Positions 3,674 to 56,607 of a stretch of 64,000 nt of DNA are shown here, piece by piece. The notes under the pieces were generated by a model that ran no database searches, was not told the DNA's origin, and worked only from the letters and a program-made list of their open reading frames with translations. Each line of letters starts with the position of its first letter. Within the stretch, counting starts at the first letter, position 1. This stretch comes from a virus, in the IMG/VR virus record IMGVR_UViG_3300009705_000015, positions 1-64,000 of that record; one strand, written 5' to 3'. Position numbers and translations under genes: made by a program.

Positions 3674-3700
3674 CATTGATAAATCGAAGCATTGATAAGG
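3674..3700 (+). promoter_or_regulatory. Two-box promoter for gene 3721
   Basis: Upstream box CATTGATAA at 3674 and TATA element CATTGATAAGG ending at 3700, repeats spaced about 16 bases. GATAAG is followed by 21 bases and then the ATG at 3721, so the transcript should be leaderless. Confidence 0.65.
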
Positions 3701-8258: not shown

Positions 8259-10511
8259 GTGTCTGATGAAAAACCAACAAGGCCATTCCGATACATCTCT
8301 TGCTTCTCTGGAATCGAAGCCGCATCCGTCGCTTGGGAACCACTTGGATGGGAACCTGCAGCATTCTGTGAAATCGAGCCATTCCCATCTGCGGTCTTGG
8401 CAAAACGATTCCCAGATGTTCCAAATCTCGGAGATATTACAAAGGTGAATTGGGATGAATGGAAAGACAAAGACATTGACCTTATCATCGGAGGCTCACC
8501 ATGCCAATCGTTTTCTGTTGCAGGAAAGCGACTTGGATTGGATGATGCTCGTGGGAACTTGGCAATCGAGTTCTGCCGCATTATTGACACGGTTCGACCA
8601 ACATGGTTCATCCTTGAAAATGTCGCTGGTCTCCTGTCGTCTGACGGAGGGAGGGATTTTGGTTCCCTTATCGAACTCATGGGGGAATGCGGGTATGGGG
8701 TCTCATACAGGATTCTTGACGCTCAACACTTCGGAGTTCCCCAACGCCGTCGTCGAGTCTTCGTTGTTGGACATATTAGAGCCGATTGGCGACATTCCGC
8801 AGCGGTATTATTTGAGCAAAGCAGCCTGCAGCGGAATCATTCGCCGACACACGGAGGCGAGAGCAAAGAGGATGCCAGAAGTTCTCCAGAAGGCTTTGGA
8901 GAGAGGGGCAGCGGGGATGGTAAATCTCCCGATACTCGAAGAAGAGTAAAGACCGAGACCTATGGAATCGGTGGTGGCCAAGCCGCCCAATGGACTAATC
9001 CAGCCGCCAATCTCGCACCAACACTTCATTGTCAATCGGATTGCGCTCTTGTCGGACATGAAGTCGATGATTCGGCATTTGCATTTGTTGAATCCATGAA
9101 TCACGATTCAGATGGCAAAGCACGACGACAGATTCGAGTCAAAGGAGATAAGACCAACACCGTTGGAACAACGAGTCAAGGTGGAACAACCCATGCGACT
9201 ATGGTTGCACAGGAAACTGACGACCCAGCAGCATTCGCATTCAATCAAGGATTGACTAAGAATGGCAAAGGGATTCTCCGTCAACCCGTGAATATCACAG
9301 GCGACACGACCAACACTATTTCAACAACCCAAAACCCACGAAACGCTGCAACAATGGTTGCACAGGATATGGACCCAGATGCCTTCGCATTCGTTGAGGG
9401 TATGAACCAAGCCAAAGACGGTTCGACACGCAAGCAAGTGAACGTGAAGGGCGACAAAACCAATTCTCTATCCACGCACCACGATACCAGCACGAATGCA
9501 ACAATGATTGCACAGGCTCATCCATCTGGTGTCGATTGGGATGGTGAACTGCCAATCGGTATCGGAGGCAATCAATCCAACCAACAAACAGTCAATTCGT
9601 TGATGGAGAACAAATCTCCAACATTGGCGGTTGATGCTCGCAATGCGGTTGCAGTTCCGATTCCAGATACAGCATTTGTTCTCGATGGAGTCAATTCCAA
9701 TTCGATGAAATCATCCAACCCAGATTCTGGAATCCACGAAGAATCAATATCTCCGACTCTTGACACATCAGCACCAACACCGGCCAAGAATCAAGGCGGG
9801 CTGGCGATTCTCCAAGAGGATTCCGTTTTGCCTATTCAGATATTCACGAAGGGTCAAAATGGAACAGGAGTCGGTCAGGCTGGTGCGCCTTCATACACAT
9901 TAAGTGAAATGGGGAATGAAGGGATTATTTCAATTCCCAATGATGAGGGAGATGATGTTGCAGCATTCACATCAGTGGGAGATGGCCGTGTCTTTGAATC
10001 AAAGGTTCACCCAACACTTTCATCATCTGGTGGTGGCCAAGCGGGTCAAGGTTATCCTGCAGTTCGTCAAGAAGGAGTTCCACGCCAGCCTGCGGTTGCC
10101 GTTGCTATCAATGACGACCATGAGGGTCGGCTTGTTGGTGGAGATGGTTCACGAACAGGAACTGTGTTGAGTCAACCACATAAATATCAATCCCAAATAC
10201 TTGAGAAGCGAGATATGATTGTTCGTCGATTGACTCCAAAAGAATGTGAGCGATTGCAGGGATTCCCAGATGATTGGACTAAAATTGAATGGAATGGCAA
10301 ATCGGCTGATGATTGTCCTGATGGCCACCGATACAAAGCGTGTGGGAACTCGATGGCCGTGCCGGTCATTCGATGGCTTGGCGTGAGGATTCAGAACGTG
10401 CATAATGCAATTCCAGAAGTTCCATTGCCAGATGATGATGATACGCTCTTAGCCGATTTCAAAGACGGTGTGGCGGTCGGTCAAAAGACAATGGATTCGT
10501 GGTTTTCATAA
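8259..10511 (+). CDS. DNA (cytosine-5-)-methyltransferase with repeated target-recognition insertion
   Basis: 750 residues from a GTG start 3 bases after the previous gene. The catalytic core carries motif I FSGIEAASVAWEPLGWE near 15, motif IV GGSPCQSF with the catalytic Cys at 82, ENV near 123, motif VIII FGVPQRRRRVF near 160, and motifs IX-X (RRLTPKECERLQGFP near 656, GNSMAVP near 696). About 490 residues lie between motifs VIII and IX, much longer than in typical Dcm enzymes. This insertion contains three repeats of about 50 residues (near 270, 322 and 372) with AFAF, GDKTNT and ATMVAQ signatures, then several SPTL motifs common in phage C5-methylases. It transfers a methyl group from S-adenosylmethionine to cytosine, likely protecting viral DNA from restriction. 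No cognate restriction enzyme is visible. Confidence 0.93.
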   Translation: MSDEKPTRPFRYISCFSGIEAASVAWEPLGWEPAAFCEIEPFPSAVLAKRFPDVPNLGDITKVNWDEWKDKDIDLIIGGSPCQSFSVAGKRLGLDDARGNLAIEFCRIIDTVRPTWFILENVAGLLSSDGGRDFGSLIELMGECGYGVSYRILDAQHFGVPQRRRRVFVVGHIRADWRHSAAVLFEQSSLQRNHSPTHGGESKEDARSSPEGFGERGSGDGKSPDTRRRVKTETYGIGGGQAAQWTNPAANLAPTLHCQSDCALVGHEVDDSAFAFVESMNHDSDGKARRQIRVKGDKTNTVGTTSQGGTTHATMVAQETDDPAAFAFNQGLTKNGKGILRQPVNITGDTTNTISTTQNPRNAATMVAQDMDPDAFAFVEGMNQAKDGSTRKQVNVKGDKTNSLSTHHDTSTNATMIAQAHPSGVDWDGELPIGIGGNQSNQQTVNSLMENKSPTLAVDARNAVAVPIPDTAFVLDGVNSNSMKSSNPDSGIHEESISPTLDTSAPTPAKNQGGLAILQEDSVLPIQIFTKGQNGTGVGQAGAPSYTLSEMGNEGIISIPNDEGDDVAAFTSVGDGRVFESKVHPTLSSSGGGQAGQGYPAVRQEGVPRQPAVAVAINDDHEGRLVGGDGSRTGTVLSQPHKYQSQILEKRDMIVRRLTPKECERLQGFPDDWTKIEWNGKSADDCPDGHRYKACGNSMAVPVIRWLGVRIQNVHNAIPEVPLPDDDDTLLADFKDGVAVGQKTMDSWFS

Positions 10512-11411: not shown

Positions 11412-12240
11412 ACCGCATATGCGATTCGCAACAGCAGGCTGTCAGCAGCAAGTGGTATTGAACTCAATATATCGCAGCACCGATTTACAACGTGAGATAG
11501 CAATTAACAAGGCATCGACAGAAAAAAAAGCATGACCGAGAGCCTGTCTTTTATTCGGGTCAGGGAACGTGAGAATCCCAGAATCCGGTGCTGGGAATTA
11601 TCCAGCAAGAGTCGCAGCACTATTCCAGCCACCAGCCCAAGCGCAGCAAACAATCAATCGACGGTTTTTCAGACGACCAAATTAAAAACCCAATCACACC
11701 CTCGCATCGACGAACAAAAAACGCTATACTGCGAGCCTGTTGTTTTTCAAGGGTGCCTGACAAAAAGGGCATCGACACTTTTCCAGACGACCAAAGAATC
11801 TGGTGCTGCAGATTATCCAGCAAGGAGGAATGGATAGAGGAACAGAACGTGCGATTTGGTATTGAGTTCAATATCACACATAGCCTATCGACACCATTCC
11901 AGACGACCAAGTGAAACACGCCGGACCCAGACAAAATAACCGTGCTACTGCGAGCCTGTTTTTTCTTGCTAAAAAGCGTTTTAATCCCATCGACACTATT
12001 CTCAAAAAACAGGTATTGACTTCAATATATCCGTGCTGCGAATTACCCTCAATCGCACGTTGTCCATCTCCAGCACAAAACCAGCACCAGATTGATTTGT
12101 CGATTATTCTTCGAGGTTATCGACAACAGATATTGGATTCGATACTCACTAAAGGGGGTTTGTCAAAATTGACAGATTATCTGCTGCTCAAATAAATCAC
12201 TATGGAACAATGCAAAAAGCCGGTTTTGAGGGCAATTGGT
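11412..12240 (+). repeat. Non-coding block of interspersed repeats (candidate packaging site, origin or RNA locus)
   Basis: About 830 bases without a credible gene. Four repeat families alternate. (1) ATCGACACTTTTCCAGACGA-type 24-mers at 11657, 11771 and 11887, with a half copy at 11989, spaced 114, 116 and 102 bases. (2) GCGAGCCTGT followed by a T-run at 11731 and 11950, with a looser copy at 11534. (3) GGTGCTG...ATTATCCAGCAAG at 11582 and 11797, with a degenerate copy near 12031. (4) The palindrome TATTGAACTCAATAT or close variants at 11456, 11860 and 12014. A perfect TGTCAA/TTGACA inverted repeat lies at 12161-12174. Overlapping frames at 11532 and 11588 merely translate the repeats. Position between a possible small terminase and the packaging genes suits a pac site; iteron-like spacing also suits an origin. 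Confidence 0.7.
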
Positions 12241-12270
12241 ATTGATATACACGAAGCATTGATATAGTGC
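12241..12270 (+). promoter_or_regulatory. Two-box promoter for gene 12283
   Basis: ATTGATATAC at 12241 and CATTGATATAGTGC at 12257. GATATA ends 16 bases before ATG 12283 and 37 before ATG 12304, so this unit deviates from the usual 21-23. Confidence 0.65.
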
Positions 12271-12282
12271 ATAGTGCTACCA

Positions 12283-12834
12283 ATGGATAAGGAGACCGCC
12301 AATATGAGCCAAACTGAAGAATTAGAAATGAGCCAGACAAACGAACTAACCCTTGATAGGGCAACAGGAACTTTGGTTCCTGCTGTTATGTCAACAGGCG
12401 CAGGTTGCGCCGTTGCATCATGGGCTACTTCGCAGAAGAAGACCGACCGTGCTACTGTTAATGAAGCACCTGCAGAAAAGCAAACCAACGCTGTTGACTT
12501 GACCATCATAGACAACATCACAGGTGCAACAGACAACATCACCGGAGATGCAACAGTTGGTCTTGATAACCCAGACGCAATCATCACACAGAAATTGGGA
12601 ACAAAATCCCTTGCTCTATTACTATTGATGAAACAGAACAAAATCACTTCTCTAAAGCAAGCACAGGAAATGTCCGAATCACTAATCAACGGTGATGTCG
12701 CAACACAGGCTACACTACTTGGAATTGACTTTGACTCCGAGAGATTCGCTTTTGCTGAAACACTTCTAAAGGGAATCACCAACGATACTCGTGGAATGAA
12801 GGCAGGTCGCCAGCAATTCACTGACCGTTCTTGA
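12283..12834 (+). CDS. Hypothetical protein, 183 aa
   Basis: The first ATG after the promoter is 12283; ATG 12304 (MSQTEELEMSQ) is an alternative. The N-terminal half is T/N/A-rich and may be disordered. The C-terminal half is helical (KLGTKSLALLLLMKQNKITSLKQAQEMSESL), with no true membrane segment. TDNITGATDNITGDAT is an internal short repeat. No family recognised. Single-gene unit immediately right of the repeat block, so a protein acting on those repeats is conceivable but unproven. Confidence 0.6.
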   Translation: MDKETANMSQTEELEMSQTNELTLDRATGTLVPAVMSTGAGCAVASWATSQKKTDRATVNEAPAEKQTNAVDLTIIDNITGATDNITGDATVGLDNPDAIITQKLGTKSLALLLLMKQNKITSLKQAQEMSESLINGDVATQATLLGIDFDSERFAFAETLLKGITNDTRGMKAGRQQFTDRS

Positions 12835-20050: not shown

Positions 20051-20265
20051 TGGTGCGTGGTGTGGTTTGTAGCAGACAACCACCACCTGCGAGCGAAATC
20101 GACGAAGCGCATTGAGCGCAGACTCCTAAGCCGCCTGTGGGGTCGGCTGCTACAATTCCAGACCAGCGCACCGGCAAACCACAGGCGACGGCTTAGTGGG
20201 GAGTTCACGAGGTTGGCTGGGAATCCTTTTCACCAATCCATAAAAAACCCCAGCGCCAATGTTAT
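20051..20265 (+). ncRNA. Candidate structured RNA or structured leader
   Basis: About 215 bases with strong complementary arms. GTGGTGGT (20047) pairs with ACCACCAC (20079); GCGC (20107) with GCGC (20116); ACTCC, TAAGCCG and CCTGTGG (20122-20140) pair in order with CCACAGG (20179), CGGCTTA (20189) and GGAGT (20200), 19 pairs in all. GTAGCAG (20069) can pair with CTGCTAC (20147) inside the loop of that arm, which would form a pseudoknot. The promoter just upstream is of the standard type. The region ends with CCATAAAAAACCCC at 20238. It is either an independent RNA or the 5' leader of gene 20270. Confidence 0.55.
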
Positions 20266-20269
20266 TGGT

Positions 20270-21184
20270 ATGGGCGACGATGAGGTTGATTTAACAGAAC
20301 TGTCAGCCCGTGCTGAATTGCTTGCAGAAGCATCTGGGAGAGATGCCAAAGCGGTTCTCGCCGATTTGCTCGACGACGGTGAGATGAATTGGTCGAATGA
20401 AAAACAAGGAGTCTTGGATAGGGCTAATGAGCAAGCCAAGAAGTTCAAGGCTCTCCTTATGACTCTCATTCCCATCATTGCTCTTGTCATAGGCGGAGGG
20501 GGTCTGGAGATGCTTGGAATCGACTTGATGGGTTCGGATGATATAGACGAAGCAGAACGTCAAGACGAGCCTGTAATCACCATATTCTGGGGCTGTATGG
20601 ATTCGACCGCCGAGAATTACGATTCAATGGCCAATGAGGATGATGGCTCGTGCCAATATCCACCACCACCACCGCCTCCACCAGAACCAATCTATGGTTG
20701 CACGGACCCAGCAGCAAACAATTACAATGAGACAGCAACAGATGATGATGGTTCATGTGAATATGACTCATATCAAAATCCAGATAACGGCACTGAATCT
20801 GGCAATGAATCTGGCAATGAAACCGAACCAGCCTGCAATTTATCAGCACTATTCTATCATAGTGAAATCATCTGGACAGAAGAGGACAACAAAACATTGG
20901 CAACGGTTCGATGGGATGCCGATTTGAACTGCGACCTGACTCACCATATCGAAGTCGATATAACCATCAAGAATGAATCTGGAGATGTTGTTCGCTCAAT
21001 TTTCACCGGCTACAATACAACATATCAAGACCCAGATTGGAAAACATGGACTTGGGATGGTGCGATAACAAACGAAACCTATTCGTTTTGCCTTAGCATT
21101 TGGCTTGAGAAGGATGGCGAATGGTTCAATACAGATGAAACCAAACATGAAAATCAAATTGCCAAAGTTCCTGAATCGGAATAA
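20270..21184 (+). CDS. Membrane-anchored, N-glycosylation-rich surface protein with GCTDP/DDGSC repeats
   Basis: 304 residues from ATG 20270; the frame opens earlier but would run through the structured region. Residues 1-60 are acidic and helical. A membrane segment (ALLMTLIPIIALVIGGGG) follows near 62. Two repeats begin GCMDSTAENYDS and GCTDPAANNYNE, each ending with DDGSC, a pattern common in secreted proteins of marine microbes. A run of eight prolines separates them. The C-terminal domain is beta-rich with at least eight N-x-S/T sequons, as expected for archaeal N-glycosylation. Probably type-I-like with the repeats outside the cell; may be a virion or host-surface protein. Confidence 0.7.
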   Translation: MGDDEVDLTELSARAELLAEASGRDAKAVLADLLDDGEMNWSNEKQGVLDRANEQAKKFKALLMTLIPIIALVIGGGGLEMLGIDLMGSDDIDEAERQDEPVITIFWGCMDSTAENYDSMANEDDGSCQYPPPPPPPPEPIYGCTDPAANNYNETATDDDGSCEYDSYQNPDNGTESGNESGNETEPACNLSALFYHSEIIWTEEDNKTLATVRWDADLNCDLTHHIEVDITIKNESGDVVRSIFTGYNTTYQDPDWKTWTWDGAITNETYSFCLSIWLEKDGEWFNTDETKHENQIAKVPESE

Positions 21185-43100: not shown

Positions 43101-45156
43101 AGCGTGGTGGCCAACCCAAACCGACCGCATGACTCTAATTGAGTTCGATACGGGCGCACCCTCAATGTATCATGGCAGACACGCATTCACGACTCGTGGA
43201 ACTGCAATGGCAGAGTCAATGAGAAGTGGATTCTTGCCTCGAAGTCAAGGTGGTTCAAGTTCCAACAGACCCGAATGGACTTCTTGGGAGTCGATGATTA
43301 TTAACTCACAGGTCAGCCAACACATTGGGAACACAGAACTGTTCATCTGGGGCGGCTCGAAGACCTTTGACTCAACCGGATTCGATGCGGCTGCATGGAA
43401 AAACACCCTCACCAATCCAGCCAATGGATGGATATTCAATTCGGCAATGGGGTCAAACAATGTTGGATGGGGCAATATGTCTAATGGATATGGAACAGGC
43501 ACACCCACCACCATTTCAGAAGGTTATCACACTATCCGAACAACATTCGATGAAGAGGGAATGCTTCTCAACATTGATGGCACTACAATCGGCAAAGACT
43601 TGAACGTGAACAATCCGGTTTGGGGCTTCGCCATTCAAATGTCGAATGCCGGTGGTGCTGGCGCACGGGCTTCAACCTCACCAATCATTGACCCAAATAA
43701 TTACTATCTATTCCCATCAGGGATGGCATACAATAAGAGCCAAGCCGATTTGCAGATTGATGAAATGGTTGTTCGTCAAATACCATCTCTCCCAATGACA
43801 CCATTCCCCGTTGATACAATTACGCAGCAGGTTGCTGGGGTTGGAAAATACACAGCACTATCTATCGAGGCCGATAACATTTCAGTCAACGCTGGAATGA
43901 ACGTGAGAGTCTCAATTTGTCCGGTGTCGGCAAATGTCGGCGGTCGTGAGATTGAAGGAGGAACTCCATACACCGGATTCAGCAACATGGATTGCGGCTT
44001 CGTTGGTGGATATGGCTCTGTCGATTTATCCACCTTGCCAGCCGATGCAATCACCAATGGATTCGTTATCCGATTCCTGTTTTTCACCCCAACCGCTTCT
44101 GACCCATCCCTCCAGCCTGTGAATTGGTCTTCGACACCAATAGTTCGAGCATGGACTTTGGAATATGACCTATCTCCGACATCAACAATTGCTTGCACGG
44201 GCAACACATTCAACGGCGACACCGTTGCACCAATCGACACGAAGGTCGGACACATAGTATCATTTAGAGGAACTGCAACCACCACCGATATTGACAGAAC
44301 AATGTCGTCAGTTCGATTCAATTTTGGAGATGGCGTGTCAACCGATTGGTTGCCATTCACCGACCAAACCCTTCAAAGCAACACATTCGATACGGCTCAT
44401 TCTTATCTGACAACAGGAACTTATTCAGCAACACTTGAAGTCAGAGATGATGTTGGGAATCTCGCCACATCAGCGGCCTTGAGCGTGGTTGTTGCCAATG
44501 CACCTCCGGTCGCAATCCTCCGTGCTGTGCCTTCTTTGGTTCGTGCTGGAGATGTTTGCACTTTGGATGCAACCGATTCATTCGATGTCAATGCCGGTGG
44601 CTCTTTGACCTCATATACATTCGACTTTGGAGATGGCTCTGGAACAATCACGCAAGGCACACCAACGGCTCAACATACATATGCGGCGGCTGGTGAGTAT
44701 CGAGCGACTCTCACAGTTCTGGATGCAGATTCGGCGGTATCTCAAACAGCATCGTCGATTGTCAAGTGTTTGCCAGCAACCCTCATTGTTCCATTAGTCT
44801 TCAACACCAAACCAAGAGCATTCAATCGCACACGCTCGGCGGAGATTGGCATGACTCCGGTTCTTGATGCGGTCTATCCTGAAATGACCGATACGGGCAA
44901 TCGGTCAGATACGTTCTCATTGTCTGGAATGTTTTTGAAATCGACAGCCAATTCCGATATAGGATTCGTCGAAGAATTACTGCTGACGGGCGCACTTGTT
45001 GAGTTCCTGTATGAGAATGTTGACTATGTTGGCAACCCATCTGGCAAAGTATTCACAGGGCGAATCACTTCATTCGATTATGAACGTCAAGGCGGCGAAC
45101 ATGGCCAAACCCCATACACGATAACTTTGGTTCGAGAAGCCGGACTTGGAGTATGA
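40192..45156 (+). CDS. Giant tail or fibre protein with two PKD domains
   Basis: 1654 residues; ATG 40192 overlaps the tape-measure stop. No signal peptide. Residues 1-1340 are strand-rich, G/N/T-rich and without recognised domains. Residues 1342-1435 and 1437-1527 are PKD domains (SSVRFNFGDGVSTDW, YTFDFGDGSGTI, AAAGEYRATLTVLDAD). The last 120 residues form a compact domain with GFVEELLLTGALVEFLYEN that could dock to the baseplate. PKD domains mediate protein or sugar contact on cell surfaces. The position after the tape measure fits a tail-tip or distal tail protein involved in host binding. Confidence 0.75.
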   Translation: MASTTQKITFVYSRQKNGLCEVQRWWPAYIKNDGVGGLTVDPVLFRSTFGPDTIADEGRGLMDEANTAGLRVEMIGFDGSAPSGTPSLEIIGSGTLDARCVLTHEDGTKTEWRFIGPSADGILATGSAGYGASDRHRAMSMNDGMNPATLASSGPYPVFATMQDFADWLDGYVNHGFGAYVAGFDENAASYSFLPAGLIEPDTSAWPPANADPRQDAANKAAIPTSSKMCATIFMPLLLDNNQMRDSQSGNTATSDIVKGQWDGATIETGAGNSGAYFNFYDEGMTRYDQSPNREGGAVIYKQLGNSGDHKPAKVGSYHTTDPTYNPDNIDDFINNDSDPSSSAYGGPSYRMRTALACFLKDGTYLLTGGSFIPYIYDPARTIGGSNGNTCYAVWNGDKGIANTPAEILAVDTDEMSSAQIFPLTEFVQGPLCSGAQGWNWDADVDGLTTYMNWIYYTQEQTDLKAQYDTTTYSGQTRPNSCTKIGQPRQGLVRPNPIRAKIYAAEQIGTTNATGLAGITTGECKGVLKVWIEKMGTKSVHVPSGMPVNLDFLGLMDGTKDIVGNNDVQYMIGTNTPKVGATENYQLGDTGTAATTGTLLGVSRSGWWIPSISTTLTAVNKSTIVAGATGTFTGVLLEFYINQEVDLPDIASYEEGGWACQGLMGGAEVQYGTGTYTTGSWPYQPLNDPTNGTLGGTGQKYSPNAKNKYNIPAAQFDGKNALPFYSFPTGLGWNAGWNQAGQNVPTAAGHDYRHPTVAVNSPQATWVSDFSGYQDDQQITPRGLSIVAADDSRYLMTPTAQGIGGGMLRLPAPPNFGLADYYYSPTEVLHLDDGTNAPIYGDFSGYFAYGPLDVAAADSSIFKSDTTDARWRSKSMVMPLYSYMENRTGDSGFDKTLPSSWRVGRNRPYPIHERIGTKGGYGPLSGLNYWAINNANAAHSSNRPQVGEETIMTGLAEIGCSPIWLDLTIRAWWPTQTDRMTLIEFDTGAPSMYHGRHAFTTRGTAMAESMRSGFLPRSQGGSSSNRPEWTSWESMIINSQVSQHIGNTELFIWGGSKTFDSTGFDAAAWKNTLTNPANGWIFNSAMGSNNVGWGNMSNGYGTGTPTTISEGYHTIRTTFDEEGMLLNIDGTTIGKDLNVNNPVWGFAIQMSNAGGAGARASTSPIIDPNNYYLFPSGMAYNKSQADLQIDEMVVRQIPSLPMTPFPVDTITQQVAGVGKYTALSIEADNISVNAGMNVRVSICPVSANVGGREIEGGTPYTGFSNMDCGFVGGYGSVDLSTLPADAITNGFVIRFLFFTPTASDPSLQPVNWSSTPIVRAWTLEYDLSPTSTIACTGNTFNGDTVAPIDTKVGHIVSFRGTATTTDIDRTMSSVRFNFGDGVSTDWLPFTDQTLQSNTFDTAHSYLTTGTYSATLEVRDDVGNLATSAALSVVVANAPPVAILRAVPSLVRAGDVCTLDATDSFDVNAGGSLTSYTFDFGDGSGTITQGTPTAQHTYAAAGEYRATLTVLDADSAVSQTASSIVKCLPATLIVPLVFNTKPRAFNRTRSAEIGMTPVLDAVYPEMTDTGNRSDTFSLSGMFLKSTANSDIGFVEELLLTGALVEFLYENVDYVGNPSGKVFTGRITSFDYERQGGEHGQTPYTITLVREAGLGV

Positions 45157-45241
45157 TTATACGACCGATATTGACTCCAATACATCGGAATATCAATACG
45201 AACTTCGAGAGTATATGAACTCCGCAAAAAAGAACCTAAGT

Positions 45242-45270
45242 ATTGATATACCGACACATTGATATAGTCG
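45242..45270 (+). promoter_or_regulatory. Two-box promoter of the structured locus at 45271
   Basis: ATTGATATACCGAC at 45242 and CATTGATATAGTCG at 45257, 16 bases apart. A terminator-like hairpin (CCGAT...ATCGG with ATTG/CAAT inside) just after the stop at 45156 precedes it. Confidence 0.7.
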
Positions 45271-45530
45271 AGGCTACACCATTCAAATTGTCCGAGCATC
45301 CAGCCGAACACCCGACTCCCCCAAAGCGGGGCTGAGAACGGTGGGAGTCTGGCGGCTAAGACCGATGCGCCTCCGCATGAAAAGTGCGGGGGATAAAATT
45401 GGAAACGAGAGCGATTAGAGTCCTCAAGCCTTGAGCCTCCAGAGTCTCCCAAGCAGGTTAAAATGTGCGGGATTACGGCATGGTAGCAAGACAGGATTAG
45501 TGTCCACCCTTTGGCGAGGGTGGTTGGGTA
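45271..45530 (+). ncRNA. Candidate structured RNA, strongest of the set
   Basis: A 260-base stretch with several perfect stems. AGCCG (45302) pairs with CGGCT (45353) and encloses GACTCCC (45314) with GGGAGTC (45343). CCTCCGCA (45370) pairs with TGCGGGGG (45385), loop TGAAAAG. CTCAA (45423) pairs with TTGAG (45431). CCACCCT (45504) pairs with AGGGTGG (45517). It has a promoter of the standard two-box type and no gene on either strand. I compared it by eye with RNase P, SRP, 6S, tRNA and CRISPR RNAs and saw no match. Confidence 0.65.
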
Positions 45531-45719
45531 TATGATTTGTTTGCGAATATCAGATATTCACAGAACGCACCGACTTCACCTATTTACACGGTGATGTCGA
45601 TTGTCAGTATGTGTTTGCTCTCGTTCCCCTGCCTGTCAGAAAGAGTATCGGCGCACTACGCCAAGTGTGTCGAGAGGGTATCTGGCAAGGGTGGGCGCAT
45701 CGGTTTGGGCTTCTTATTC

Positions 45720-45750
45720 CATTGATATTACCAAAGCATTGATAAGGGGG
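45720..45750 (+). promoter_or_regulatory. Two-box promoter for gene 45768
   Basis: CATTGATATTACC at 45720 and GCATTGATAAGGGGG at 45736, 17 bases apart; GATAAG ends 21 bases before ATG 45768. From the RNA locus to here (45531-45719) no gene is convincing. Confidence 0.7.
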
Positions 45751-45767
45751 AACTGCCAGCGTTGGAT

Positions 45768-46112
45768 ATGACCCAACAGTCAAAGCCAACCAGCCTAAAA
45801 GACCGAATGACCAAAATGGGGCAAAATAGCCTTTATCCTAATCACATCATCCACCCGATGATGCCAACGGATGCAACCCCTTTGATGCAGAAAATGGTTG
45901 AGAACTTTTGCTCTTATAATGATACATGGGTCAGCACCCACATGGATAGAGACTTTCTCCTTAGCCTAAACAAATCGCAATACCAATCTCACCGCAATGG
46001 CTACAACGCCTCTCCTGAACAAAGCGAAGCAATCAACGCTCTCGTTGCAGCAGAAGTCTTTGAACTCAATACCACATACAAGCCGGTTCTTATCCTCATC
46101 AATTGGGTTTAA
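45768..46112 (+). CDS. Hypothetical protein, 114 aa
   Basis: ATG 45768 set by promoter; TTG 45762 in frame is not needed. N-terminus basic and polar, with SLKDRMTKMGQNSLYPNH; C-terminus hydrophobic (YKPVLILINWV). No domain. Helical region QSEAINALVAAEVFELN. Single-gene unit immediately left of the hub gene. Confidence 0.6.
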   Translation: MTQQSKPTSLKDRMTKMGQNSLYPNHIIHPMMPTDATPLMQKMVENFCSYNDTWVSTHMDRDFLLSLNKSQYQSHRNGYNASPEQSEAINALVAAEVFELNTTYKPVLILINWV

Positions 46113-46156
46113 TCAAAAGCGAATCCGTGATAAGCCCCAAGCGTTCCACTTGAAGT

Positions 46157-47983
46157 GTGGTTGACGATAGCATAGAGCGATTCCACCGGCTGGTGCGGTC
46201 GCCAGAGGATGCGATGGTGATTACACCACCTCAACCCCTTCTCGATGAGATAGAGCGTCTTGGACAAGACCCTCGCCGACCACGAACAGCAATTGCGAGA
46301 TGGGCTTCAAGAATCTGGTTGGAACACGCTCACACGGCTCGGCTCGAAGGTATCTCCGATAATGAAATTGATTCCACGCATAGTGAAAAAGAATTGATGG
46401 AACGGCCATCTCATTATCCTGATGATTGGGGTCTTGATTTGATTCCATTCCCATCCGACTTGGGCGGTTCATGGACACGAGATAAGACAACAACGCTCGC
46501 ATACACCAGCCTCACCACACCAAGACCATTCGACCCTCAATTGCATGGTGATGTTGGAACCAGCCCAGACCAAGCACTTGGGTTTGGATATAATTATCAA
46601 GGCAAATCGGGATTCCCAGACCAGCACGACATTGTTGCTCGTCGTGGCGGGGGTCCTCGTGGCGGATTCGCAATGACGACGGGTCCAACAGAAGGTGCAT
46701 ATCCCACAGCAATCCTCCCACAGCCCGTGTTCAATTTAGGGCGTCTGGGCTTCTCTAATGGAGGTTGGAATCCTGAAGGGCTACAATGGACAAACAGACC
46801 CAAGAGGATGCGCTTAGGAGGTCTTAGGAACGGCTGGGCGCATCGTGTGTTCTTCGCTCGCTCTCGTCGTGTGATGTTCCGCAATTTATTCGGTGCGATT
46901 TCAGAAGACGAAGCGACTCCACTATGCCCGACCGTAGTGGTCAATGGAATGAATGACCTTCATGGAATACTATCGGTTTCAATGGACAAGACGTTCAATG
47001 CACCAACAATTTGCTCTATCGAAGTCAATAACCCATCTGGTCGTCGAACAGGAACTATCGTCGTTGGCGATACGATTCAGATTTATGCAGCACCGAGAAC
47101 TTGGGCTGACCCTCCTTTGGTGTTCACCGGATATGTCTCCGAGATTAACGAATCGACAGAATCAATATCAGTTCGATGTTCAGATGCTCTCGGCTATCTC
47201 GGAATCGAAGTTATCAAATCCGAGCCTCATTATTATCAAACAGATGCGGCGACCGTTATCAAAGACTTCATTGCTAATTCAAATTATTCGCCACCAATCG
47301 GTCGGATATTGAATCAATCATTCGTTATCCTCCCAGCAGGCATTCTCTTTGCTGGAATGACAAGACTCAAAGCGGTGCAGGGGATATTGAACATCATCAA
47401 CAGCACACCAAATCTCATTCAATTGTATTGCTCGCCAGATGGAATGATTTGTATGAAGCGGCTCAAAGAAGTTCACGATTCGACAACCATTCCGTATGTT
47501 GGAGGGCGACTCCCCAGAACTGCATCACCTCAAGACTTCTATGCTACGGGAATTGAACGTGAAAGCGGAGATTCAACGGGATTCAATGTGGTCGTGGTTA
47601 GCAATCCAAAATTGAACATATTGGTCAGCATTCCGGTGAAGGGTTCACTTGCTTATCCAAACATTCCGGTTGAAAGAATTATCAAAGACGAGTCGATTAT
47701 CAATGACAATCAAGCCAAAATGGTCGGGGAATATATGTTGAATACTCAAGGATTGGCGAAGACCAGATGGGTCGTTGAAGGAATCCCAGAGCGATTGGAT
47801 ATTGAAACCGGACAAATCATGGAGTTCGCATCGGTTGAGGCGAGTCTTGCAGGGCGACAAAGGATATTCAATGTGTCTTGGCAAATCAGCCCAGCAATGT
47901 CAACCATGACTTTGAATGTTGGCCGACAAGCACCAGACCTGCTCTCGACTTTGAAGTTCGCAGCAGGAATAAATCAGGGCTGA
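46157..47983 (+). CDS. Baseplate hub or tail-tip protein
   Basis: 608 residues from GTG 46157. The N-terminal 240 residues are R/G/P-rich without a known domain. From residue 265, MNDLHGILSVSMDKTFNAPTICSIEVNNP, TGTIVVGDTIQIYAAP and VFTGYVSEINESTESISVRC, then FVILPAGILFAGMT and ETGQIMEFASV, follow the order of gpD/gp27-type hub domains (late control D). Such hubs bind the tape measure and hold the fibres. A strong terminator hairpin follows at 48011. Confidence 0.7.
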   Translation: MVDDSIERFHRLVRSPEDAMVITPPQPLLDEIERLGQDPRRPRTAIARWASRIWLEHAHTARLEGISDNEIDSTHSEKELMERPSHYPDDWGLDLIPFPSDLGGSWTRDKTTTLAYTSLTTPRPFDPQLHGDVGTSPDQALGFGYNYQGKSGFPDQHDIVARRGGGPRGGFAMTTGPTEGAYPTAILPQPVFNLGRLGFSNGGWNPEGLQWTNRPKRMRLGGLRNGWAHRVFFARSRRVMFRNLFGAISEDEATPLCPTVVVNGMNDLHGILSVSMDKTFNAPTICSIEVNNPSGRRTGTIVVGDTIQIYAAPRTWADPPLVFTGYVSEINESTESISVRCSDALGYLGIEVIKSEPHYYQTDAATVIKDFIANSNYSPPIGRILNQSFVILPAGILFAGMTRLKAVQGILNIINSTPNLIQLYCSPDGMICMKRLKEVHDSTTIPYVGGRLPRTASPQDFYATGIERESGDSTGFNVVVVSNPKLNILVSIPVKGSLAYPNIPVERIIKDESIINDNQAKMVGEYMLNTQGLAKTRWVVEGIPERLDIETGQIMEFASVEASLAGRQRIFNVSWQISPAMSTMTLNVGRQAPDLLSTLKFAAGINQG

Positions 47984-48010
47984 TATTGGATTCGATATGA
48001 AAGTCGCTGA

Positions 48011-48040
48011 TTTCAGCAACCCCCCAGCGGGTTGATGAAA
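48011..48040 (+). terminator. Hairpin terminator after the hub gene
   Basis: TTTCA and CAACCC (48011-48023) pair with GGGTTG and TGAAA (48030-48040), 11 pairs with single bulges. Confidence 0.6.
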
Positions 48041-48068
48041 TGCAATTTGACGTTCTATTTGCCTGTCA

Positions 48069-48083
48069 TATTGAACTCAATAG
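48069..48083. promoter_or_regulatory. TATTGAACTCAATAG palindrome
   Basis: Copy of the recurring intergenic palindrome (others at 11456, 11860, 12014, 55652), about 60 bases before the promoter at 48146. Confidence 0.4.
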
Positions 48084-48145
48084 CATTGTCGATGTTTCAG
48101 GCTGGCTCGAAACGACCGATTTCATTGCTGATTAAAGAACCAAAG

Positions 48146-48159
48146 CATTGATATAGTGG
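48146..48159 (+). promoter_or_regulatory. Promoter of the structured locus at 48160
   Basis: CATTGATATAGTGG preceded by CCAAAG. It has no upstream CATTGATAT copy at 16 bases but shares the TATA box with the promoter at 16891. No coding start lies 21-23 bases downstream. Confidence 0.6.
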
Positions 48160-48660
48160 AATGCACACCGTTGTTTGTAGCCGGAACATCAGGCCACCGA
48201 CGACCCTCGACAATAACCGACCACTTTTGAGTCGGCTGGCGGGGATTATTTGAAACGCTACACACCTCAACATGGTGGATAGGGTGCGTGAGTCTCCTTC
48301 GAGGAGAACGGATGAAATAGCCACCTCCCAGATGTTGAGGCGTTCTAAAGACGAGCCTGTGCAGCACCTCGTGAACATCACTTGGTCAGACACCAGCGGA
48401 GAACTTAAAGTGGAATTGGTTGAAAACCAATGAGAACGGGAGGCATGAGTCTTTCTCCCTCGTTTCAAATACATGGTGAGAATCTCTCCCTTAGCGGGGA
48501 GGGTCGTTGCCTTCAACCGCACAGGGGGGAGGTCAATCAGAAACATCGAGTTCGTCTTTATTCGGGTGCAAACCGGAACTGAAAGGGTGGCGGGGGTGTG
48601 GGCGACAAGCGAAGAGTTCTATCAACCTCACCGATGATTTGGTTTAGCGACCATCTCATC
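48160..48660 (+). ncRNA. Candidate long structured RNA or leader of the giant fibre gene
   Basis: About 500 bases without a gene. CCGAC (48217) pairs with GTCGG (48231). CCTCAACAT and GGTGG (48265-48278) pair with CCACC (48321) and ATGTTGAGG (48332), 14 pairs with a 6-base bulge, and enclose TCTCC/GGAGA (48293, loop TTCGA). AACG (48254) and CGTT (48341) extend it. ATTGGTT/AACCAAT (48415) and CTCCC/GGGAG (48486) are further hairpins. It could be an independent RNA or the long 5' leader of the fibre gene, whose own TATA-like element is weak. Confidence 0.6.
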
Positions 48661-48668
48661 GGTGCTGG

Positions 48669-51600
48669 TTGGCCACTTCACCTTCTTTCATCCTTAGCAA
48701 CAACCACTTAAAGCGGCGAGGATTACCATTTGATGTGCCACCAGCGCCAGCAATAACCCCCTCCACAGGAATGCCGGTTGATACGGTGGATATGATTCCA
48801 CCAATCGGGAGTCGGGGCTTGCCCTTGACCCTCGTTTTTCACGATAGCATTGACGACACCATTGCCGATGCAGCCAATTCCCGTATGGCTCTCTGGGATG
48901 AAGCGGTTTGGACACCGAGAGCGACGAATGCGGTCGGTGCATCTGGAACTGTAATCAATCCCAAAGGGGTCGTGCCATCAACAACAACATTCGACAAATC
49001 AAGTTATCCACCAACACCAACCAATCTCGGAATGGAACAAATCCCAAGAGCGTTTGGATTGCGAATCGCAACAACCGCACCCAGATTGAATCATGCGAGA
49101 GGGCATTTGCTTCAAGGACAAACAGGTCAAGACATTGGGGCGAGTCGCCACTATCCAGAACAAGTGAAAGGAACTTGCGGATTTGGAGGCTTGTCGATTA
49201 CAGAAGCGGGTCAATTCACATCTCATCCAACAGAAGGCTACACATCGGCTCGTGCTGGGAATCACACTTGGTCTCAAACATCAAGGTCTCAAACATCTCA
49301 ATTTGACCAGATGGCCGGAATGCCATTCGTTGAAGGAACATTCTCCAGCACAGAATCCACATGGATTGGGGGTCCTCAAGTGGCCAACATAGCCCACAGT
49401 GTTGCTGGCGATATTCCATCAAATGGTCTTGGGATAATTTATGGAGATAAGCACAATTCACAGTTCCAAACCACGCTTGTATCGAGTCCGATATTGTCAA
49501 CGGCGACAACGTGTGGAATCGCTTTCACCGAAGACGAACATACATTCTCATCTCATTGGGTCATAAATCTCCGAACAGACCAACCATTCGTTGAAACGGG
49601 TCAAGACATTTCAATGCCAGATGGATTGACAGGCTGGTCAGTGATGGGTCAAGCGTCTGCTCGCCATGCCAATGCTGCGTTCAGTGGTGAAGACACCATC
49701 CAACAAATCCTCACACACGATGCAATATCCAATGGCACAGCCCCACCTCAATCGAAGGAAAACACGACTCTTGGTCGTGTTGATTTGGGCGCAAGTGTGG
49801 TTGTCGATTCAGCAGGTTTGATTGGATATGAAGGTGTGATTGTAGCCAGCGCATTCTTCGCACCAACGAGAGACACCGACCCGACCCAGATTCAAGGTGC
49901 AATATCCAACGACACCACCTCGAAGGGCTATGCGGGGATTAACATTCAAGTTCATAGTGGAATGACGGCCAGACGAAACCAGACACCATTGATTGATACT
50001 GGACCCGAACCCTATCTCTATGGAACCGATGGTTTAGTAGTCATGCCAATGACCGATATGGTCAAGACATATGCAGGTCGAGGAATCGGACACACTGTTC
50101 CAGCCTCAACAAATGCAAACAACACATGGGTTCGGAACTTTGGTCGTGTCAGAGATGATGGGTCGGGATTGCCAAGTCAAGCCCCAGCGGTTGGCGATAC
50201 CACCGCCAAGCCATTTGGGAATGGGCTAATCGAACGTAAAGGGGCGGGTCGAGCCACTAAAATTGTTGGCTCGAATGCGTGTTCGGTTGGTTCGCCAGAG
50301 TCGATTGATTTAGAATACAGCACAGGCCGTTGGATTGCAGATGGAGTTCCAACCAAAGTTCAAGTCATTCCCTCAATTGTTGGCTACACCGATGTGGTTG
50401 TTGCTGCCGGTGCTGCAAAATTAGCAGCCAATCCCGCAGCACCAAACCAAACATTCCGCAAGCCAATCGTGGATTATCACGTTCTGGTATCGGTTATTGA
50501 CCCCAATAATGTTCCTGCTGCGGTTGCCGATACTGACCCAGCGAACACGAACATTGGTCAACCAACGAACAGGAATGCGCCGATGTCAAATCGACTACAC
50601 ATTGATGCTAATTATCAAGACATTCCATGCACTATTTATCACGCTATTTTCAGAATTGACCCGACCAATCTGGAACAGATATTTATTGAATCTGGTGCTG
50701 GAGTTATGGCCGGTTTGGATGCCACCAATTTTGATTGTAAAGCATCCATCATCCCTCGTCATTCTTTCACCGATGGTGAATATGCTCAACAAGGTTGGGG
50801 TCTTCACCAAGCGACACCATTCCGACCGATAGCATTGGCCGACTCGAATACTCGGATTCCAAAATTATGCGCCGCCATCGAGGCTGGTGGATTCTATCAA
50901 CGAGGTGGGATTTCACATCTCTGGGATGCCTCCATCTATGAAGGTGAACTCTTTGTTGGGGCTGATTTCATTGACTCACATGACCTATGTGTAGCCACCG
51001 GCACGAAGGATGGCCACACCACATTTGGTGTGTTTGGCAATGGTCAAATATGGCCAGATGGAACTCCATCCCCTCAACGACCAAAGGGAACTGAATTGAT
51101 GGTGTGGCGATACTCGCCGACCCTCGACCCTCTTTGGACTAAAGACACCACATTTGCCAGCAATCCAATCAAGGATATGTTCCCAAAGTCAGTGGTATCG
51201 GTGGCATATGATACCTCTTGCGACACCATGACGAGAGCATCCACCGACTTGTTGAATATATCACGAACTGCAATCGGAATCGGTGCGGTCTGGAATCTCC
51301 ACGATTGGGTTATGCCACAGATTGAAATGATGAGATATTTGGGTCGTGAAGAGAAGGATGCGGTGGTTCATCCTTTATCATCACAGGCTGCATCTCCACC
51401 TCTCCCCATCTATCACCCAACGCTTCATTGTTCCAGCCTGCGAATCATGGAGGATGGTCGGATGGCTATGGCGGCGGTGCATATCGACTACATCAAAACC
51501 GAGAATGATTATCCAGCGGTTGACATCAAATATCCTTTGAATCCTGACCTTGACACGGGCGGTTGTCCTGCTGGATATTACCAATCTGGTGGCAAGTGCA

Positions 51601-54600
51601 TTCCACTTGATGGTGGTCAAAGCGACAATCCATCGGGATATGGTTCAGACCCAGCATCTGGAGATGTAGTTCCCGAACCAACCGGCGCACCATCACCCGT
51701 CAATGGGTCAGGTGGTTCGACTCCCAAGAGCGATAACTTCTCCGCATATCCAACATGGTCGAAACTGATGGCGAACACACAGGCTCGCTCGTTGATTTTG
51801 ATGTTCACCGATGTCAAAGAGGATGAACAAACAGGACTCGCCAAGCGTGGGCGAGCGTTGTTTGATATTCGATGGGAGACCATTCCTATGGGAGATGGAG
51901 AAGTTCCAGATACTATCGCCAACCAAATGTGGGTTGATGGAGATACTTGGTGGTCAGGTGCAAGAATCTCATATTGGTATGCCGAATCTGGACAACAAGC
52001 AATTCCAATCACATATGGTTCATATCCCGATTGCCGAATGACTTTTGCACATTTACCACGTTCATTGCCATTCATCGAAAATATAATTATTGGGTCCAAT
52101 ACGGTTGGAACTATCCGTTCTGGATTCCCGCAGATTCAGCCGATTACCACAGCACGAACTTTGAGCGTTGCTTTGCCATTTATCAATGCAAATCTCGGCC
52201 AGCCTGTGAGCGCATGGTCGGTTGAGCGCATTGCGTTTTTGACATTGACTCGGTTCGTGGCAACGACAATCGGCTTTGCTGACTTTGGCTCTGGTGCGAA
52301 TCCTCACCAAGAACTTGGGTGGTCTGGTTGGTCATTCCCTCGTGGCCTCTATGACCCAGCAGCATTCGGAGATAACACTTTATTCTTTTCAGATGCGCCA
52401 GAATCAACAGAAGCAGAACCACCAATCGGTGGTGTCATTGTTCCAACCGAGCAAGGGATATTCGCTGGATTCGGAGATATTATTGACGATAATGCTGGAG
52501 GGGCGAATCCATACGCACCAGCATTTGCATATTCTCTCGATTGTTCAGCCATCACATATCCTGTGAACCTTGAATCATTCAGAGCATACAAAGCCGGTGG
52601 AACAGGAGAACAATTGTTGAATCCACCAAGAACCTGTGGTGGTTTGACAGAAGTTCTCGCCAACATAATGGACCCAGCGCAATCGACTTATTTTGCTCTC
52701 GACCAAGAATATGTCAACACCGGAGAGCCTCCATTCCAGATTATTGGAACTTCATTGGTGAGAACATACAACCCCTTCAATCCTCCAACGATTGAAGCGC
52801 AGATGCTTTGGACTTCAATAACTCTTGGTGGAACTACAATTCCATTCGTGTTTCATGGAACAGAAGGCCACCGATTGATGCGGGGTGGACAAGGTGGATG
52901 GTCGCATCACGGACCCCTCCACTATGGAATCTCAACCAAATTGCATCCATACCGTGTCGATAGAGTCTTCAAACAAGTTCACGGTGGTGTTGGCTACAAT
53001 TTGCCGATTCATTTGCTCAAGCCTCCTGCTGTCCATGTGCGAGCGAGAGCCGGAGGGCGCAATTCTCTTGAACTTGAAATGGAGACTCCATTCCACCGAA
53101 CTGACAACATTCACTTGCTCGGTGCTGCGACTTTCAACACCGGATTTGAACTCGGTGGGGAATCTCCAGCAGGTCAAGCACGACCCGTTGCTGGTCAATA
53201 CTTCTTGCGAACTAATCTATGGGATAAACCAATGTGGCCAACGGGTGGTGCAAAGCCAGCCAAGACTCTTGGGCTTGGTGCATACACGAGAGTTCACGGA
53301 CCCATTGTCAGTGGCTCATATGGGCTTGAGGCATTCTGGTCAGACCATCCAACCGACCACTTTCATGCTGCGGCGATACCAATTCTCCCCAACACCGATT
53401 ATGACCTATCTATGATTCAAAATAGCCGATACTCACCAATGATGCTTGGTCGAATCAAGGAAATGAGTCGGCACGATATGATTGCTGTGTCAGAACAATT
53501 GATGTCGTCTGTTGACGTTCATGTATCGAAAAGTTCTCGACCAATGTGGGATTCTGGCGGAATCGTATCGGCTCAAGGTATTGGGTATAAGGATGCGGTT
53601 GCGGGTCCATACATGATTCAAACACAATCCTCGATGGATGGTGAGAACTTGAAGGGTCCGGCGACTATGGCCGGTGGTTCGGGTCCACAGTGTCTCGGTC
53701 ATGGCCAACGTATAGTCAGAACTCCAGATGGAACTCTTCACCAATTCCAATTCCACAGGTCGGTTCAATCTGGGTCGCTCAATCTCCCCCAATGGTGTCA
53801 TTTGAAAAAGCCAATTCATGCGGATTTGTTTTACAATCGCAGAGCAATGAAACCAGACCAAGACGCTGCGGTGTTCGGTGGCAAGGATGAATGTGGACCC
53901 ACATTGGCATCCGTTGGTGCTGGGATGAGTCAAGGTGAATACCATAAAGGCCGAGTCATGGGGGCTGCGTTTTGTTCCGATTCAAATGGAACTCTCCATG
54001 CGGTTATTGAATATCATCCAAATCCAAATGATGTGCCAAGCCATCAAGCGCATGAACTGTATTATCATAAGGCTGAAAGAACCATGTCAACATACAATCC
54101 AGAACCCGTTTATGATTGGGATTGGTCAGTTCACACACCCGTGTTGATTCAATCTGGATTGACAGGAACAACAGAATCGGGAGGAACTCGATGGGATTTG
54201 AGGCAACCATCTCTCGTGTGCGATTCTCAAGACAAATTGCATCTCGCCGTTGTCCAAGTTCTATCCACCGTTGGTGGTTCAGGATTGCCTCAATCGACAA
54301 GGATATTCTATACTTGTAAATTGGATAGTGAACCATCATTCGCCGATTGGGTTCCATTGGATTCCACAGCACGGCCTGACGACAATAGGTGGCAATTGGT
54401 TCACGGCTCGATTCCTGATGCTGGCTATACTACGCTCAACCAAGCATCGGTGGGTCCACATTACACCAATTTCAACGCAGAGCCAAAGGTTTGTCTTCGT
54501 GGCGACAACCTGCCTGTTGTATTTTATCGAGGTTTTCCAATCCAATCGTTTGGAATTGCTGACAGGAACTATTCGGCGATATATGCCAACATAGGAATAA

Positions 54601-56042: not shown

Positions 56043-56441
56043 ATGACATACGCAGTAAAAATGATTAACAGACAACCAGACTATGAAGCCGAATACCCTC
56101 ACACCGTTGAGGATGGAATTATGCACTATCGTGGATTCAGCACATTCCCAGACCAATCTGGGTTTTATGGCGATGATATTGATTGCATCACGACCTTCGT
56201 TTGCCGAACTACTGACCTTCGTGTCGCTATGGCGGACAAGCCACGAGGCTGGACAGTCATGTCATGCCAACACCCAATGCAAGGCGATGAGAAGGGCTAC
56301 AAGCAACGCCCATACTTCTTCGTTCCTCAAACTGACAAGTTCATCGCTACGGCTGAATCGAACCTCGCTGAATCCGACTTATCGGACTCCGACAAAGACG
56401 AGGTTCGTGCGCTCTGGGAATCATACGGATGGTTCGCTTGA
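56043..56441 (+). CDS. Hypothetical protein, 132 aa
   Basis: ATG 56043 lies 8 bases after GGAG; ATG 56034 would be too close. Contents: MTYAVKMINRQPDYEAEYP, many W, Y and D residues, and an acidic end (ESDLSDSDKDEVRALWES). No motif. Second gene of a two-gene operon ending at the 56506 hairpin. Confidence 0.6.
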   Translation: MTYAVKMINRQPDYEAEYPHTVEDGIMHYRGFSTFPDQSGFYGDDIDCITTFVCRTTDLRVAMADKPRGWTVMSCQHPMQGDEKGYKQRPYFFVPQTDKFIATAESNLAESDLSDSDKDEVRALWESYGWFA

Positions 56442-56505
56442 ATTGATATTCTGATTTGATACTCAATAAGCATTGATAGAAGCCCTGCAATCCATCTGCA
56501 TCATT

Positions 56506-56524
56506 AGCCCCCCATAGGGGGGCT
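56506..56524 (+). terminator. Perfect GC hairpin terminator
   Basis: AGCCCCCC, loop ATA, GGGGGGCT: 8 perfect pairs. A second weaker inverted repeat (ACACATA and TATGTGT) lies at about 56558-56588. The 56442-56607 gap holds nothing else. Confidence 0.6.
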
Positions 56525-56607
56525 ATATCAATCAATCAAACCCACAGGGGTGTTAGAACACATATACGATAGTCAATATGTATGTGTATGAGCATAGGGG
56601 GTGATTC

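Follow-up and report, generated by a model that had tools for sequence, protein, structure and literature searches.

We read the locus between two tail genes of this virus as a free-standing non-coding RNA gene that belongs to a new family in related tailed viruses, which are probably archaeal, and we favour a trans-acting accessory role for its product; we put the probability of this reading at about 0.6. The predicted structured RNA, here called RNA1, would comprise about 430 bases (approximately positions 45287–45720, plus strand, of the window, that is, of the whole 64,000 nt stretch that was analysed). Sequence comparison gives good support to the view that RNA1 is a member of a previously uncatalogued family of structured RNAs, with about 11 distinct members in IMG/VR. 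The helices P1, P2 and P3 of this family (by covariation or by architecture), the independence of RNA1 from neighbouring genes, and its presence or absence within the virus population are likewise well supported by these comparisons. The features, all on the plus strand, are as follows.

45243–45266, plus strand: RNA1 promoter, read from the sequence, with tandem TATA-like boxes TTGATAT (45243–45249) and TTGATATA (45259–45266).
45265–45729, plus strand: 465-bp unit missing from the near-identical contig L001, as seen by comparison of the two.
45287–45720, plus strand: RNA1, with inferred ends, based on the folding z, the lowest value among tiled windows and the family match (0/1000 shuffles).
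45287–45358, plus strand: 5′ end ATTGT, 28 nt past TTGATATA as in the family, followed by the P1 region, which RNA1 has in the form of an enlarged hairpin domain (AGCCG/CGGCT, GACTCCC/GGGAGTC).
45360–45369, plus strand: linker GACCGATGCG, which is also the 5′ strand of P4 and pairs with 45696–45705 (0/300 shuffles).
45370–45392, plus strand: hairpin P2, CCTCCGCAT / GTGCGGGGG, aligned with P2 of the family.
45401–45412, plus strand: 5′ strand of P3, GGAAACGAGAGC, pairing with 45617–45628 (0/300 shuffles).
45617–45628, plus strand: 3′ strand of P3, GCTCTCGTTCCC, partner of 45401–45412.
45696–45705, plus strand: 3′ strand of P4, CGCATCGGTT, partner of 45360–45369.
45722–45746, plus strand: promoter of the next gene and right border of the cassette, with a TATA box 29 nt before the ATG at 45768; homology to L001 resumes at 45730.
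48174–48706, plus strand: RNA2, second likely member, with the same promoter (48148), P3 TATTTGAAACG/CGTTTCAAATA at 48247/48461 (2/300 shuffles) and P4 (13/300); its position is shared with the RNAs of contigs L003, L035 and L002.
20066–20240, plus strand: RNA3, tentative third member, with the same promoter (20039), a TTTGT start and P3 (8/300 shuffles), no P4, and the ORF 20057–21184 open through it.

The first-pass annotation had placed a two-box promoter ahead of the locus, and boxes are indeed seen at 45243 and 45259; boxes of this type also precede many other genes of the virus genome. It had described the following 260 bases as gene-free, which is correct for a stretch that is really longer: positions 45157–45767 are without a plus-strand gene, and no plus-strand ORF of at least 80 aa lies between the stop of the tail gene (45156) and the next gene. 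The latter is listed as an ORF from 45762, has its likely start at ATG 45768 (gene span 45768–46112), and its promoter holds two TATA boxes, at 45722 and 45739. A minus-strand ORF runs across the locus (45087–45452) and gave no match in a family search; a conserved ORF over the region did not appear. Genes preceded by boxes in this genome often start 22–29 nt past the box, and the box-to-ATG distance of 29 nt repeats at 3692, 4194, 45739, 61500, and, on the minus strand, 26215. Judged from the sequence, this spacing is what archaeal TATA promoters and leaderless mRNAs show. With the same spacing, transcription of RNA1 is predicted to begin near 45287, a position without a start codon. RNA1 would share its promoter type with protein genes, as had been proposed, the type being that of archaeal TATA promoters also found at leaderless protein genes. 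Tandem TATA-like boxes about 16–17 nt apart stand before many genes (e.g., 4177, 12242, 45722, 56456, and 34956 on the minus strand), and the two-box pattern has 57 matches in the whole window against 29 expected.

To evaluate folding, sequences were compared with shuffled versions. The excess was modest for the 268 nt interval annotated initially (z −2.2; 6/200 shuffles) and strong for the natural unit 45284–45719 (z −3.5; 0/100). When the genome was tiled into 71 windows, RNA1 showed the lowest folding z, −4.3 to −4.4, against a background mean of −0.7 and a standard deviation of 1.3. The next-lowest values belong to windows 56100–56535 (−3.4) and 12000–12435 (−3.0), each of which overlaps short predicted ORFs and might contain more structured RNAs. 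The minus strand, folded for the shorter interval, reached z −1.9; as the comparison of strands was not decisive, RNA1 was assigned to the plus strand because of the promoter orientation. The unconstrained minimum-energy fold of RNA1 includes P2, P3 and P4, and a joint fold with all helices forced was informative for RNA1, RNA3, L002, L003 and L124. All stems named in the first-pass annotation were found in the sequence, and its hairpin CCTCCGCA/TGCGGGGG is real and equals P2 of the family. Its limits for the RNA were too narrow: the predicted 3′ end lies about 190 nt farther downstream, and the long-range helices P3 and P4, which carry the most information, had been missed.

For comparison, 37 related loci were gathered by means of a 608-aa gene downstream; one search for relatives at the protein level returned just the twin contig. 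In L003, L035 and L002 the gap after this gene, which corresponds to the 48160 locus in the window, holds RNAs with a common start (ATTGTTGGGG...CCCC, CCGAAGCGATAC, a hairpin, GGGGTGAATTGG), the form in L002 being diverged. By scanning IMG/VR for patterns, we also obtained L116 (and copies), L120, L122, L124 and L128. The RNAs of the family begin with WUUGU, 26–28 nt after TTGATATA, followed by hairpin P1, the linker CCGAnGC, hairpin P2, the long-range helix P3 and often a closing helix P4, and their sizes range from 240 to 700 nt. In an alignment of five relatives, a small set, P1 and P2 were paired in 80/80 cells, with two-sided changes at one pair in P1 and one in P2, and G–U pairs were tolerated. 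Homologous RNAs with covarying helices, the search for which had been suggested as a check, thus exist in related viruses.

P3 follows P2 directly, and one strand pairs with a distant strand; its sequences are unrelated between members (e.g., AACGAGAGC/GCTCTCGTT in RNA1, GAGTCGAGA/TCTCGACTC in L002, GGTGCCCGCCTATGG/CCATAGGCGGGTGCC in L128). Pairing amounts to 9/9 within the own member versus 3.8/9 across members. By a shuffle test that is inflated about twofold, as judged on random window positions, P3 was reached in 0/300 shuffles for RNA1 and L128, in 1–4/300 for RNA2, L003, L035, L120 and L124, in 8/300 for RNA3, in 18–20/300 for L002 and L116, and in 246/300 for L122, where P3 is unsupported. 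P3 of L128 is a perfect 15-bp helix. P4 is strong in RNA1, L120 and L122 (0–1/300 shuffles) and suggestive in L116, L003 and RNA2; the shuffle test did not support it in L035, L002, L124, L128 and RNA3.

RNA1 shares these traits of the family: the TATA box TTGATATA at 45259 with ATTGT at 45287 and no start codon, the linker CCGAnGC, a P2 ending in GGGG and a AATTGGAAAC-like strand (alignment score 38), with P3 just after P2 and the closing P4 (0/300 shuffles each). Where the family has the simple 5′ hairpin P1, it carries a larger domain of 70 nt. The local alignment over linker, P2 and P3 was the best in the window on both strands, and 0/1000 shuffles were as good. Scored by the covariance model of the five relatives alone, RNA1 reached 13.8 bits (E 0.056), which is near chance, and a chance hit inside a gene scored better; in a descriptor scan over 1.02 Mb it ranked sixth, after five relatives and above every chance hit. 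Covariance-model hits in L105 and L085 were rejected as coding. We consider the membership of RNA1, as judged by these comparisons, well supported, and the initial reading as a promoter-driven structured RNA is strengthened by the RNAs of related viruses and by the match of the RNA1 5′ module.

These values also bear on whether the locus is a decayed small protein gene or a functionless spacer that folds by chance. The slot does hold small protein genes in relatives, and there is no close homologue in which purifying selection on RNA1 could be seen: a sequence search of the 37 related records returned nothing above chance. RNA1's own helices cannot show compensatory change for the same reason. 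A scan of IMG/VR for an RNA1-type module found none, and a scan for the TTTGTAGC start returned twin contigs and two chance hits only. However, RNA1 is the genome's most strongly folding window, shuffles reproduced neither its module (0/1000) nor P3 or P4, the promoter is preserved, and the predicted start falls on the 5′ motif of the family. We regard chance folding as improbable.

A set of such RNAs, with further loci at 20051 and 48160, had been suggested by the first-pass annotation. The same promoter is present at both. The 48160 locus (RNA2) likely fits the family, mainly by architecture and position, and a search of the 37 records matched it in the near-identical twin only. The proposal holds partly for 20051 (RNA3), for which the same search returned nothing above chance; we treat RNA3 as tentative because its agreement with the family is limited to the start and P3, and because the downstream ORF stays open in frame across it. 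The mechanical start of ORF 20057–21184, GTG 20057, precedes the predicted start of RNA3, and a likelier start is ATG 20270, 29 nt past a TATA-like CATAAAAA at about 20241.

Contig L001 is 99.8% identical to positions 45730–52980 but is without 45265–45729, and the flanks join inside a TATA-box repeat. L077, from the same metagenome as L001 (3300027801), can be aligned to the window as far as 45236, where it stops with unit-bearing sequence; it therefore appears that the two alleles coexist and that the assembly broke at this point. In L003, L035 and L002, small ORFs, one or two per contig, occupy the slot of RNA1 under a promoter of the same type. The unit thus appears to be an exchangeable, dispensable RNA-gene cassette, whose dispensability we infer from one contig pair; recombination between the repeated promoters flanking each unit would account for gain and loss.

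RNA1 lies directly upstream of the gene 45768–46112 on the same strand, and could in principle be its structured 5′ leader, acting as a riboswitch or attenuator. This gene, however, is served by a TATA box of its own, 29 nt ahead of the ATG, and is kept in L001 where the RNA is missing, while members of the family adjoin different genes and the copies in L124 and L128 converge on their neighbour. A leader is thus very unlikely, and a cassette is preferred because the unit is cleanly missing between promoters, the alleles appear to coexist and related viruses have small protein genes in the slot. The clean presence or absence between repeated boxes would also suit an element acting at the DNA level (a recombination site, a replication or packaging signal, or a miniature mobile element) whose inverted repeats mimic RNA structure. 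Against this stand the functional-looking promoter with its fixed spacing to a conserved 5′ end, the tolerance of G–U pairs in P1 and P2, and the lack of terminal inverted repeats and of any target duplication except the promoter boxes. We give such an element hardly any probability.

Members of the family adjoin tail, portal and terminase genes; in L116, L120 and L122 the RNA precedes the portal gene. Inverted members, convergent with the 608-aa gene, are found in L124 (minus strand from 1953) and L128 (minus strand from 6281). In a more distant sister group, L016 (2018–2522) and L022 (3579–4233) have gene-free stretches in which long inverted repeats surround TATA boxes; these stretches do not match the RNA1 family and may represent an RNA of another type. 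Tail, portal and terminase genes as neighbours of the family would fit an RNA for capsid or tail assembly or for DNA packaging, as the packaging RNA of phi29, likewise a small structured RNA of a tailed virus. But the positions vary between genomes without tracking any one structural gene, a near-identical virus lacks the unit, genomes hold more than one member, and there is no Rfam match to the phi29 RNA, which makes this role quite unlikely.

A search of Rfam 15, including relaxed thresholds, gave no family match and only weak chance matches, and ARAGORN found no tRNA or tmRNA in the window, in agreement with the initial statement that no known RNA class could be recognised. A phage collection contained no match to RNA1 or to the family module, a plasmid collection gave chance matches only for the module, and the family search of GTDB genomes gave two chance hits in bacterial sequence and no true member. 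In the literature searched, which covered Poseidoniales viruses in part, structured RNA genes of magroviruses or related archaeal viruses did not turn up, and an earlier description is possible.

ROOL and GOLLD, from bacterial phages and prophages, form RNA-only cages (PMC12286853). RNA1 could in principle likewise assemble into a multimer or cage, which might enclose or sequester host factors. The RNA1 family resembles GOLLD as a large virus-encoded structured RNA with a conserved and a variable region, and ROOL in being a large, multi-helix RNA that is virus-encoded and dispensable (PMC12286853); its size range is similar. In contrast to both, it has no covariance-model match in Rfam and no tRNAs nearby, although proximity to tRNA genes is frequent rather than universal for GOLLD and ROOL. 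Compared with GOLLD, its conserved part is at the 5′ end, its length is 240–700 nt and the host genes point to archaea; compared with ROOL, its anatomy differs, a genome can hold more than one member and there is no tRNA island. Several different members per genome, some of them very short, fit poorly to a cage of fixed symmetry, and a cage seems unlikely to us.

The related genomes have genes for a DNA polymerase of family B, a clamp loader resembling RFC and a nuclease resembling XPF, and for this reason an archaeal host is likely, as far as gene content can tell. The host might belong to the Poseidoniales, a guess from what is known of magroviruses. The window also encodes a 750-aa C5 cytosine methyltransferase (8259–10511), whose conserved parts (about residues 10–245 and 570–716) are split by some 300 residues, perhaps an intein or extra domain.

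As a free-standing RNA gene, the locus would be transcribed from about 27 nt past the TATA box, beginning with WUUGU. In the predicted fold, hairpin P1 stands at the 5′ end and a three-way junction unites the closing P4, hairpin P2 and a long arm that P3 closes. Because the 5′ head is conserved and the arms vary, a common partner combined with individual specificity is suggested: the partner would recognise the head (P1-CCGAAGC-P2), and what lies beyond P3, the variable arm, would set the specific action of each RNA. A trans-acting accessory RNA is favoured since RNA1 is unlikely to be a simple leader, shows the head and arm pattern, and sits in an accessory slot; it would most likely serve host takeover or counter-defence. 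The longest exact complementarity elsewhere in the window was 13–14 nt, which gives no indication of an antisense action on viral genes. The VA RNAs and EBERs of animal DNA viruses are free-standing structured RNA genes with their own promoters and more than one per genome, and VA RNAs counter a host defence. The RNA1 family is alike in these genetic features and differs in domain of life, polymerase, size and fold, and for it counter-defence is a hypothesis only.

More speculatively, the family may work as plug-in RNAs, with several promoter-bounded genes per genome, a 5′ head read by one factor and exchangeable bodies that give the targets; archaeal viruses might then swap RNA effectors at hot spots as others swap small accessory proteins, an idea we hold tentatively. 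Large structured RNAs are already known in bacterial phages, and no Rfam 15 entry matches the RNA1 family. Its conserved 5′ module, its two or three loci in a single genome, and its gain and loss within a population would make it a source of concrete RNAs for studying a role in the infection of uncultured, probably marine, archaea.
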